Positions 19,672 through 40,313 of a stretch of DNA of 41,063 bases are shown one piece after another. The stretch's first letter is position 1; each line of letters opens with the position of its first letter. The notes under the pieces are model-generated. The model was given only the letters and a program-made list of their open reading frames with translations. It did not search any database and was not told the DNA's origin. The translations under genes and the position numbers were made by a program. Source of the DNA: Dysgonamonadaceae bacterium. GTDB taxonomy: Bacteria > Bacteroidota > Bacteroidia > Bacteroidales > Azobacteroidaceae. The stretch spans positions 1 through 41,063 of the forward strand of contig JAIRPX010000335.1 of the NCBI GenBank assembly GCA_031256775.1, read 5' to 3'.

Positions 19672-20264
19672 ATGTCAAAGAAAAGTTTTAAAGAGTATAA
19701 TCAGGGTCAGGGCTGCCTTTTTCCGAGAAGTTTGGACGAGATGATTCCTGCGGATTCTCCCGCCCGCCTTGTCAGTCAAATTGTTGATAATCTTGATATT
19801 ATGAAAGTTATCGACGCCTACACAGGCGGCGGAACTTCGTCGTACCACCCGCGAATGATGCTCAAAATCATTCTGTTCGCCTGTCTGAACAACATTTATT
19901 CGTGCCGAAAAAATCGAAAATGCAAACGGAAATCTGTGAAAAAAACAAAGCGAAACTCGAAGCTAAAATCAAAAAAATACTCGAACAGGTCGATGAATGT
20001 ATAGCGCAGGACAACAATCCCGATGATGAGCCGCCAACGCCGATAAACTCCGAAGAATTGAAAGAACGCATTGCCAAAATCAACCGCGAAAAACTTTCAA
20101 AAGAACAGAAAAAATCCTTCAAAAACTTGTTTTTTGTCAAAAAACCGGTCGTTTTTATCATTTTTGTTCAAAAACAAAAATTTTCTTCAACCCAAAAATA
20201 TTTTTCTGTTCAAAAACTCAAACTCACCACCTTGAAAATAAAAAAAAAGAGGCGGCCGTTTTGA
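19672..20264 (+). pseudogene. IS1182-family transposase, deleted and frameshifted
   Basis: The first ~80 codons are a normal IS1182-type N-terminus (FKEYNQGQGCLFPRSLDEMI, then YHPRMMLKIILFACLNNIYS). After SCRK at about 19910 the frame is lost. A second frame (from about 19915) continues with a piece from well inside the family, KNKAKLEAKIKKILEQVDEC and PTPINSEELKERIAKINRE. It then jumps again near 20130 to a short low-complexity tail. The central catalytic region is missing. The product cannot be active; mobilisation would need a transposase supplied from elsewhere. Confidence 0.85.
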
Positions 20265-20359: not shown

Positions 20360-20390
20360 TTGTTCAATTCATAGAAAGTGAATAATTTTG
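20360..20390 (+). promoter_or_regulatory. Promoter of the T9SS cargo gene
   Basis: TTG (20360-20362), 20 nt, then TAATTTTG (20383-20390), matching the Bacteroidota consensus. The start point would be about 50 nt before the ATG at 20449. The site lies outside the IS remnant. Confidence 0.55.
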
Positions 20391-20448: not shown

Positions 20449-21552
20449 ATGAGAAAAACATTACTCAGTATGTGTAAACAAAAATTAATTAGGGGGGGGG
20501 TAAAATCCGGACTCCTGTTTTTATTTGCTATGTTTTTTAGCGTAGCTATGTATGCCGAAAAATATGATCTGCCTATTGCTGCCATTGGTACATCCGGATG
20601 GGGAGACACCTCTTCCGATGGAAACGGTGCTATCACTTATATAACCGCGTGGACGGGATGTGGATGGTGGTTAGCTCCAGATGATATTCCAACAGATTTG
20701 TCGGCATTTAAAAAACTGATCATCAAATTCGAATCACTTCCATTTCCTGTGAGAATTGTTATTGAATATGATGGTGTGTCCAATTCCAGTAAGGATATTA
20801 TTACCGGAGAAACAATAGGAGAAGTTGTCTTAAATACAGAGGGGGCTTCCAAAGTAAAGCAAGTTTATATACAATCCGGGAACGGCGGAGTAGGCACCAT
20901 AATTGTGAAAGAAGCGTATTTTACGGATGATGATAACGATAACGGCGAAGAAGGACCGATCGGCACTCCGGTAGAACTTCATTTAAGTGGCTCCCAAGGC
21001 AAAAATCTCTTATTGGAAGAATTTGTCGACTTTCCGGATACTACCCCAATCGAAGTTGTACTGACTATCGCATCAACAACAACAACTCCAACAGCTCCAG
21101 GTTGGGGTGTGGGATTTATCTTGAGTATTGATTGGGCTGGTAACAAGTATGAATTTATAGCTAAAGAGGTAACTCCGGAAGGTGCTGAAAATAAATATTC
21201 ATTTACTGCCGGACAATTTAAGGAATGGGCAAAAGACAACGACGGGGAATATATAGTTGACCAGTATGGTCAATCAGGCTTAGCTGTTAATGTTTACAAT
21301 GGAGCAACTGTTACCAGCATTACAGCTTATACATCCGGAGACGGCATTGCACCCGTTTATCCAGCAGATCTGATACGTAATACAGCGGGCGGCATTATTG
21401 TGAATGCGGCAAACGAAAAAGTTTCTATCTACGGCTTCGATGGACGTATGATAAAACAAACTGTTTCCGGTAAAGGAACCATCACTTTACCTCAAGGTTT
21501 ATACATCGTAAAAGCAGGAACAGCCAAAGCGGTAAAAGTTATTGTAAAATAA
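20449..21552 (+). CDS. T9SS-exported protein with C-terminal sorting domain
   Basis: The 367-residue protein has a long N-terminal region, then a signal peptide (SGLLFLFAMFFSVAMYAEKY, about 20-39). Two beta-rich stretches follow (about 40-160 and 175-310), the first like a carbohydrate-binding or galactose-binding fold (LSAFKKLIIKFESLPFPVRI). They are joined by an acidic DDDNDNGEEGP linker. The last ~75 residues are a type A T9SS sorting domain: VSIYGFDGRMIKQTV, then LPQGLYIVKAGTAKAVKVIV. No enzyme motif is visible. Nine consecutive G fall in codons 15-18, before the signal core, so the start must be upstream of the tract. Losing one G gives TAA at once; gaining one gives TAG 13 codons later. 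Phase-variable expression is likely but unproven. Confidence 0.8.
   Translation: MRKTLLSMCKQKLIRGGVKSGLLFLFAMFFSVAMYAEKYDLPIAAIGTSGWGDTSSDGNGAITYITAWTGCGWWLAPDDIPTDLSAFKKLIIKFESLPFPVRIVIEYDGVSNSSKDIITGETIGEVVLNTEGASKVKQVYIQSGNGGVGTIIVKEAYFTDDDNDNGEEGPIGTPVELHLSGSQGKNLLLEEFVDFPDTTPIEVVLTIASTTTTPTAPGWGVGFILSIDWAGNKYEFIAKEVTPEGAENKYSFTAGQFKEWAKDNDGEYIVDQYGQSGLAVNVYNGATVTSITAYTSGDGIAPVYPADLIRNTAGGIIVNAANEKVSIYGFDGRMIKQTVSGKGTITLPQGLYIVKAGTAKAVKVIVK
20492..20500 (+). repeat. G9 homopolymer in the 5' coding region
   Basis: Nine G in codons 15-18 of the T9SS cargo gene (AGG GGG GGG GTA). This is striking in an A+T-rich context and is the kind of tract that causes slipped-strand phase variation in other bacteria. 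Sequencing or assembly error in homopolymers is the main alternative. Confidence 0.9.
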
Positions 21553-21598: not shown

Positions 21599-21634
21599 AA
21601 ACATTCCATATTATTTTTTTAATATGGAATGTTT
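21599..21634. terminator. Bidirectional intrinsic terminator
   Basis: A perfect 14-bp stem (AAACATTCCATATT with its complement), an 8-nt T-rich loop, and T-runs on the 3' side of both strands. It lies between the convergent T9SS cargo gene (ends 21552) and the giant gene (ends 21647) and can serve both. Confidence 0.85.
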
Positions 21635-37414: not shown

Positions 37415-37999
37415 ATGAAGAAAAAATTGGTTTTTGTTACAAATAATTCGAACAAATTGGAAGAAGTTCATGCGCTATTGGGCAATAACGTACAGTTATT
37501 GTCCTTAAAAGATATTTATTGCCAAGAAGATATTCCGGAAACAGCAGAAACACTGGAAGACAATGCACTCCTAAAAGCCCGTTATGTAAAAAAAAATTAT
37601 AACCTGGATTGCTTTGCCGATGATACAGGATTGGAAGTAAAAGCATTAGATAATGCGCCCGGCGTTTATTCGGCACGTTATGCCGGAGAATCAAAAGATC
37701 CGAAAATCAACCGGCAAAAACTTTTACGGAATTTGGAAAAAGAAAAAGATCGGTCGGCGCAGTTTCGTACCGTAATTGCATTAATCATAGGGGAAAAAGA
37801 ATATTTATTCGAAGGAATTGTAAAAGGCGAAATTATCCGGGAAGAAAAAGGGACAGGCGGTTTCGGCTACGATTCAATCTTCGTACCGGAAGGATACGAC
37901 CAAACATTTGCCGAATTAGGAACGGAAATAAAAAACACAATCAGCCACAGGGCAATGGCTGTCAATAAATTAAAACAATTTTTAAATGAAAACGAGTAA
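37415..37999 (+). CDS. rdgB: XTP/dITP diphosphatase (Ham1/RdgB family)
   Basis: The 194-residue enzyme hydrolyses non-canonical purine nucleoside triphosphates (dITP, XTP) to monophosphates, protecting DNA and RNA. Family motifs are [14 protein letters not shown] at the start, [20 protein letters not shown] and [26 protein letters not shown] and the closing NTISHRAMA are also present. The ATG at 37415 is chosen because the motif begins directly after it; an in-frame ATG 24 bases upstream adds residues not typical of the family. Its 3' end overlaps the porZ start by 14 bases, so the two are coupled. Confidence 0.93.
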
Positions 38000-40313
38000 T
38001 TTTGTCCGATTTATCCCTCTTTTATTCCTGTTTTGTTTTTCTATTCACGGACAGCGTGTCGGACAATGGAAATCTTACATGGCCTACCAAAATGCTACTT
38101 TGGTAACAGAAACGCCACATTTCGTTTTTGCCGTATACGATGGCTCGCTTATGTCGTATTCCAAAGAAGATGGAGAAGTTACAACTTATTCTTTTGAAGA
38201 CGGACTGCATGATGTGCAGATTATAAAAATGGCTTACAGTCCCGAAACAAAAACGCTGGTATTGGTTTATGAAAACGGAAATATTGATTTGTTTTTTGGA
38301 AAAAACGATGTAATTAATATATCTTCAATAAAAGACAAATTGGATATACCCAACAAAACAATAAATAATATTACAATCGCAGGCAAATATGTGTATATAT
38401 CCGCCGCGTTCGGTATTGTTGTGCTTGATTTGGAACGAAAAGAAATAAAAAGCGACTATAAACTGGGAACGAATACAGCCGCCGTCTGTCAATGGGGCGA
38501 TTACCTCTACGCGGCTACCGGAGAAGGACTTAAACGCGCTCCGGTTTCGTCTAATTTGCAAGATAAAGAAAACTGGATAAATTTGCCTCCCATAGAAAAC
38601 TGCAATAATAACCAAATAACCCAAATGACACTGTTCAAAGATCACTTGGTATTTTATGATTCAAAAAACCTGTTTTACGTCGAAAACGTAGAAACCGGAA
38701 AAGCGCAGCAGATTGGTTCGACCGGCGCCTGTTGGCACCTGTCCGTTATCCGTGACCGATTAGTTGTCGGAGTATGGAGCTCCGTCTGGTTTTATGAAAA
38801 TTTCGACCGTTTTGATGCAGTATCTTTTAGCGACGAATACAGATATATTGCTCCGTCCGGTACATCGAACGATCATTATTGGATTGCATGGGGATCCAAA
38901 GGGATAGTAGAAGTCAAACTAAAGCAGGAAGGATCTGAACTGAAATACGAAGAAACAATTGCTGGCATCAAGGTTAACAGCCCTGTGCGAAATCTATGCT
39001 TTTATATGACTTACACAGCCGGTAAATTACTGGTTGTCGGGGGAAACAGAGACGCCGACCGCAGGTATATTCCGGGAACATTGATGATCTATGAAAATGG
39101 CAAATGGTTTAATTTTGATAATAACGCCATCATGAAACAAACCGGTCTGGATATGTGCGCCGACTTTTTGTCGGTAGCTGTAGATCCGCGAGATTCCCGC
39201 CATTATTTTGTTGCAAGCTGGGGAGAAGGCGTCTATGAATTTCAAGACACAACGTTTGTTAAACTTTATTCGCTAGACAACAGCGAATTGCATTCCTCGC
39301 TGCCAACAAATTCAAGAAAAGATCATTTTGTTCGCGTAGATGGTCTTGCTTACGATAAAAATAACAACCTGTATATGGTCAATGCAGAAACACCCAACGG
39401 ATTGGTCGTTTTGAAAAATGACAATAGCTGGGCATCATTCCTTTATCCGCCAATGTCGGGAGTTCAACCCAACCGGTTACTAATTACCCGGAACAACCAA
39501 AAATGGGTGAACCGTTTCCGGGCAGGATCCGGGATCTTTGTTTTGGATGATAATAATACTATCGACAATCCAAATGATGATACTTTTTATTTTTCCGATA
39601 ATTTTGTCGACCAGCGAGGCGTCAATATCAAAGCCGCAACCTACTTGTGCTTGGCAGAAGATCTGAACGGAATTGTCTGGGCAGGAACCGATAACGGCCC
39701 TGTCAGTTTTTCTTCGTTTGAACAGGTTGGCAGAGGTGAATGTAACCGGATTATTTCGACCAACCAATACGGCGACGGATATTATCTTTTAGAAGGACAA
39801 CGGGTAACCGCGATTGCCGTTGACGGAGGAAACCGAAAATGGATAGGTACTACCGGTAACGGTATTTTTGTTATGGATAATTCCGGCGAAACAGTAAATG
39901 TAGAAAATTTTACCAAAAGCAATTCGTCCCTCATCTCCAATAATATTACTTCGATTGCTATAAATCATCAAACGGGCGAAGTATTTATCGGAACAGATAC
40001 TGGACTGGTTTCTTATCAAAGCGACGCTATTGAAGGAAAAACGGATTATTCCAATGTATATGCCTTTCCCAATCCGGTTTACCCCACACGGAATAATCAG
40101 GTAATAATTACCGGATTAATGCAAAATTCCACAGTTAAAATAACCGATATGACGGGAAATCTAATCAAAGAAGGAATTTCCAAAGGCGGCCGATACACTT
40201 GGAATTGTACGAACATAAGAGGCAATATTGTAAAGGCCGGTATCTACCTTGTTTTTGCTGCTACTTCCGACGGTAGTCAAGGCGCAGTTACCAAGATTAT
40301 GGTGATTAAATAA
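37986..40313 (+). CDS. porZ: PorZ-like T9SS surface protein (beta-propeller)
   Basis: The 775-residue protein has a signal peptide ([12 protein letters not shown]), then about 660 residues of propeller blades. Examples are [20 protein letters not shown], the repeated [20 protein letters not shown] type, and [22 protein letters not shown]-terminal sorting-like domain ends it ([38 protein letters not shown]). P. gingivalis PorZ is nearly the same length and has the same layout. There it works with PorU in the attachment complex and supplies A-LPS for anchoring T9SS cargo. The two cargo proteins in this window would be handled by that machinery. The start overlaps rdgB. No clear terminator follows. 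Confidence 0.85.

Follow-up and report, generated by a model that had tools for sequence, protein, structure and literature searches.

The window, by which we mean the whole 41,063-nt stretch of DNA that was analysed, is contig 316 of a 343-contig assembly of 3.93 Mb and 89.6% completeness. On its plus strand, positions 20449 to 21552 encode a predicted secreted protein of 367 amino acids, with a signal peptide recognized by eye, a body without Pfam match and a C-terminal tail resembling those of T9SS cargo. The N-terminus of this protein reads MRKTLLSMCKQKLIRGGVKSGLLFLFAMFFSVAMYAEKYDL. A run of nine Gs (20492 to 20500, plus strand) occupies codons 15 to 18 (AGG GGG GGG GTA) and is followed directly by TAAAATCC. 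As the sequence-only reading had stated, the run lies upstream of the part of the predicted signal peptide that comprises its hydrophobic core and its end (GLLFLFAMFFSVAMYA, 20509 to 20556, plus strand, by inspection). Translation of all frames showed that, after the tract, one alternative frame meets a stop immediately, while the other reads KIRTPVFICYVF and then reaches a stop as its 13th codon. A change of one unit is thus predicted to abolish the full product, in agreement with the earlier claim that a shift by one G leads to TAA at once or to a stop 13 codons on. The claim that no later in-frame start would keep the signal also held on inspection of the sequence, since a start at the first in-frame ATG downstream of the tract, at 20531, would halve the hydrophobic core. 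Some 60-90 nt before the gene starts, we read from the sequence a candidate Bacteroidetes-type promoter (TTG, 20 nt, TAATTTTG; 20360 to 20390, plus strand), taking TANNTTTG as the consensus. Downstream of the stop codon, an A+T-rich inverted repeat read from the sequence (21600 to 21633, plus strand) is a possible terminator, although the consensus scan did not list it as a terminator-like site. A short ORF matching the transposase domain DUF772 (19672 to 20004) was seen about 450 bp upstream of the gene carrying the G9 tract.

The C-terminal sorting-like tail (21397 to 21549, plus strand) scored just under the cut-offs of two profiles, with 21.6 bits against 23 for TIGR04183 and 23.2 bits against 23.7 for DUF6383. 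TIGR04183 matched all six aligned homologues of the protein at E ≤ 0.01. The T9SS-export label that had been given to the protein is plausible, with the window protein itself falling just short of the cut-offs. A PorZ-type protein (PF21544, E 1.8e-46) is encoded at 37986 to 40310 of the window, the neighbours include fimbrillin-like proteins (Mfa_like_1) and a DUF3575 protein, and a TIG domain was found in a 3190-aa ORF, of which the last 690 residues were scanned. A profile search of solved structures with the window protein returned nothing credible (best E 0.36).

Matches to the window protein were obtained in 20 of the 58 genomes searched, mostly through the tail. No relatives were found in the contigs of named genomes, a set that may lack records close to the window's genome. 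The best orthologue (L045, in genome G002) has parts of the body and the promoter region in common with the window gene. The DNA alignment of the two promoter regions reached 68% over 165 query bases, with TTG and TATATTTG of L045 at the columns matching the candidate promoter. Alignment of the genes at the DNA level revealed one clean gap, of 36 bp or 12 residues, that includes the tract. Relative to its homologues, the window gene thus carries an in-frame insertion of 12 codons at 20477 to 20512 (plus strand, edges accurate to a few nt), which was also seen in the protein alignment with L023, L024, L025 and L029. None of the five homologues with a visible N-terminus, which come from other species, has a G run longer than three near the start. 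The clean gap at the tract and the tractless homologues suggest that the tract is a recent gain in the window gene.

The G9 is the sole G or C run of at least 8 in the window. First-order shuffles of the window gave a mean of 0.59 G8 sites, and the 2 sites observed were equalled or exceeded in 16 of 100 of them, which is not significant. This null overstates long runs, because the probability that a run is extended drops in the window from 0.25 (length 1 to 2) to 0.15-0.17 per base (lengths 2 to 6). We also consider an expectation for the genome that was extrapolated by run-length decay from the window's 13 runs of at least 5, the G9 included, over both strands of the 3.93 Mb. It predicts about 0.7 runs of at least nine Gs, against 13 distinct runs found, 8 of them with at least ten. 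For runs of at least seven, 33 were found against 30 predicted. By length, 30 of the 33 could be classed, of which 10 were G7 and 7 were G8. With the total near its prediction and just 10 G7 among the 30 classed, the excess sits in the long class. Across 38 genomes of the genus, the number of runs of at least nine Gs ranged from 0 to 71. Among 197 genomes of the order, three of them from the window's genus, 89 had no run of at least ten Gs and a few from other families had 7 to 18. From these surveys, richness in tracts is neither genus-wide nor strictly restricted to the genus.

We collected 138 tracts, namely 13 from the window's genome (at least nine Gs), those of at least ten Gs at 120 of 124 listed positions in 22 congeners, and a few from G005 and G028. 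At these tracts, 99 open pieces of at least 100 aa were present, and 50 were scanned against Pfam, some of them being neighbours of a tract and not interrupted genes. A match at E ≤ 0.001 was obtained for 36 of the 50, in some cases under the curated cut-off. Among the matches were MBOAT, Acyl_transf_3, a hexapeptide acyltransferase, GtrII, GT2, NAD epimerase, DUF6044, TonB/SusC receptors and a reprolysin-like protease; others were to Hsp70, HpcH, PfkB, MaoC, thioredoxin reductase and UvrD. Ten additional pieces yielded FkbM in six of six downstream pieces of the FkbM-like genes, a TonB barrel (L168) and a T9SS tail (L167). When 32 coding tracts of envelope or glycan genes, chosen and classed by hand, were examined, 13 were in frame and 19 out (p 0.45 against one third in frame); the tracts classed as lying in other genes were in frame in five cases and out in two. 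In six proteins read as exported by eye (the window gene, L010, L120, L173, L176 and L185), the tract either precedes the signal peptide, falls inside it or follows closely after it. One of them, L010, lies in the window's genome (G000 contig C7, 3231 to 3239, minus strand) and is a TPR lipoprotein gene, with a lipobox recognized by eye and a G9 in its first codons that is out of frame; the G9 is followed by TAAAATC, the same letters as behind the window tract. Elsewhere in this genome (L273, contig C274, 1502 to 1509), a G8 behind GTTAAC was seen in the gene of a long membrane protein (DUF6541, under the cut-off), out of frame in the assembly. Long G or C tracts were also noticed by eye just 5′ of the start codons of envelope and other genes (L012, L143, L162, L189, L191 and L207), where they are possible promoter or leader switches.

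Homologous genes of congeners carry tracts of different length and frame at the same site. With an upstream FkbM piece as query, 17 homologues were found in 9 of the 38 genomes. Seven of the 17 have a tract in the same stretch (G8, 10, 10, 11, 13, 13 and 15), five of them out of frame and two in frame. The other ten are tractless, nine being open through the site and one (L242) broken there. The relation between tract and open frame gave a Fisher p of 0.03 on homologues that are not independent of each other. Among MBOAT acyltransferases, L100 has a C10 in frame and L166 a C10 out of frame, and in SusC proteins with the tract in the signal peptide a G10 is in frame in L173 and out of frame in L176. 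A methyltransferase, presumably CmcI-like (Methyltransf_24 in L161), has a G14 out of frame in L161 and a G10 in frame in L210. Finally, a membrane protein gene is out of frame with G10 in L133 and with G14 in L157, and is tractless and open in L247. Judged from these sequences, poly-G switches are very probably used in surface genes by some congeners.

A TAA directly follows 42 of 136 tracts, compared to 1.9% of 311 runs of G5 to G7. Because intergenic tracts also carry it, selection for a quick stop alone fails to explain this bias. In the 38 genomes, G10TAA matched 62 times and its reversed control 28 times; G060 contributed 19 of the 62, but just 1 match to the reversed control. GTTAAY-G8 occurred 11 times in the same genomes versus 3 times for its reversed control. 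A transferable cassette 5′ of the tract was considered but is not adopted here; in FkbM-like genes the site fits the expansion of an existing GGG (L237, L229). Two loci of G060 (L061 and L073) have a G14 bordering a dispersed repeat. A dispersed element of the form Gn-TAACTTGCTCATTATCAATGAGTTA with a small hairpin was observed beside the tract at L217, L068, L069 and L077, and in a looser form at L060, L009, L011, L015, L014 and L016.

The reading that we consider best, with a probability of roughly 0.7, is that the G9 of the window gene is a contingency (phase-variation) switch. DNA polymerase would slip on the G run and thereby frequently add or remove a G. Nine Gs put the start at 20449 into the reading frame of the signal peptide, and the protein would then be exported. 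At other lengths, except those three Gs longer or shorter, a stop right after the tract or 13 codons on would fall before or within the signal core and nothing would be exported. We infer for the window gene that this slippage takes place in living cells, that it is reversible and that it entails loss of the protein. In favour of the switch we count, besides the layout and the tracts of congeners, the excess of long G runs in this genome over the run-length decay, the out-of-frame G9 of L010, the position of the tract in an insertion behind a conserved promoter region, and the fimbrillin-like and PorZ-type genes of the window. The phase-variation reading made from the sequence at the outset is thus upheld in its layout and gains from the support for poly-G switches in surface genes of congeners, while for the window gene the five homologues with a visible N-terminus and no tract count against it. 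The G9 is near the short end of the collected tracts, and the gene is in frame, as would be expected also if the tract were fixed. Mismatch repair, through MutS and MutL, should limit slippage on short tracts. MutS and MutL were over cut-off in 35 of the 38 genomes each, and both in the window's genome, so that loss of mismatch repair is not supported as the cause of the tracts.

A G run could also expand under mutation bias without being selected, in which case the protein would simply be made, its signal-peptide n-region being longer, and frameshifts would be occasional, deleterious accidents. Several observations favour this explanation. In genome G003 (1.2 Mb in five contigs), which we take to be Azobacteroides CFP2, there are 19 runs of nine or more Gs, up to G18 (L081 to L097). 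Some of these lie within or close to genes of housekeeping type as judged by eye (resembling rplK, argB and asnB), several in frame. In-frame tracts of congeners also lie in thioredoxin reductase, PfkB and UvrD-like genes, and the runs of L177, L102 and L197 belong with these observations. Thus, G runs also accumulate where no switch is plausible. The homologues of the window gene that lack the tract, the uneven counts of long runs among the 38 congeners and the fact that G8 is not rare in first-order shuffles are likewise consistent with it. What makes us consider unselected expansion unlikely is that homologous surface genes keep the tract site and yet differ in length and frame, that more than half of the hand-classed surface tracts (19 of 32) are out of frame, and that plain expansion predicts no bias towards TAA.

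Two further explanations would leave the DNA of the cell unchanged or put the tract down to the data. A fixed tract might give a mixture of products by transcriptional or ribosomal slippage, and PMC2831843 mentions the transcriptional polymerase in connection with frameshifts at poly-A tracts in the symbiont Buchnera. This precedent concerns poly-A, however, and in congeners the tracts of homologous genes are of unequal length in the DNA itself. Moreover, the zero frame of the window gene is already open, so slippage of this kind would only lose product, and we regard it as very improbable. It is just as hard to credit that an error of assembly or sequencing produced the G9. The genome is fragmented into its 343 contigs, and implausible poly-G runs stand at contig ends of relatives (G84 in L182, G24 in L170), but the window tract has 20 kb on each side in its 41-kb contig, and among the three frames only that given by nine Gs runs on.

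Poly-G/C contingency loci of Campylobacter, Helicobacter and Neisseria are instances of phase variation by simple sequence repeats. The tracts analysed here resemble them in lying within genes, in their length of about 8 to 15 Gs or Cs, in the surface-glycan and outer-membrane genes concerned, in the mixed frames among relatives and in the truncation of the product by a change of one base. They differ in that the host belongs to the Bacteroidales and has MutS and MutL, in that the window tract lies 5′ of the signal-peptide core of a T9SS-type protein, and in being known from sequence alone. In other phyla, homopolymer switches occur at the 5′ end or in the signal peptide of outer-membrane protein genes, an early coding tract deciding whether the exported protein is made; the early position of the tract in the window gene is similar. 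Closer in descent are the invertible promoters and SusC/SusD loci of Bacteroides, which belong to the same order and have overlapping kinds of target (capsule, SusC receptors). Unlike slippage, these loci switch by site-specific DNA inversion, according to the review PMC11868660, which agrees with the earlier statement that inversion is the better known switch in Bacteroidales. Slippage is raised as a possibility, in PMC3090145, for a frameshift in a C run of an O-acetyl-related gene of B. fragilis. In the literature searched, which includes the accessible parts of PMC11868660, PMC3711429, PMC3090145 and PMC2831843, we found no account of Bacteroidota varying phase through poly-G tracts; this is a weak absence, since subscription papers and a long-repeat genome survey cited in PMC11868660 are outside that scope. 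The mechanism is known, and it is the lineage and the target that were not found in the literature searched.

More tentatively, and with considerable doubt, the genus may carry a poly-G phasome, which would give Bacteroidales a second mechanism of phase variation next to inversion of DNA and would operate in bacteria that have mismatch repair genes. Such a phasome would cover O-acyltransferases, FkbM methyltransferases, glycosyltransferases, SusC receptors and T9SS cargo, and a gene would join it once its 5′ end had gained a small Gn-TAA insertion, the window gene being an example. If the poly-G switch holds, slipped-strand mispairing would join DNA inversion as a route of surface variation in Bacteroidales, and some surface genes that are frameshifted in metagenome assemblies would not be pseudogenes but switches turned off.
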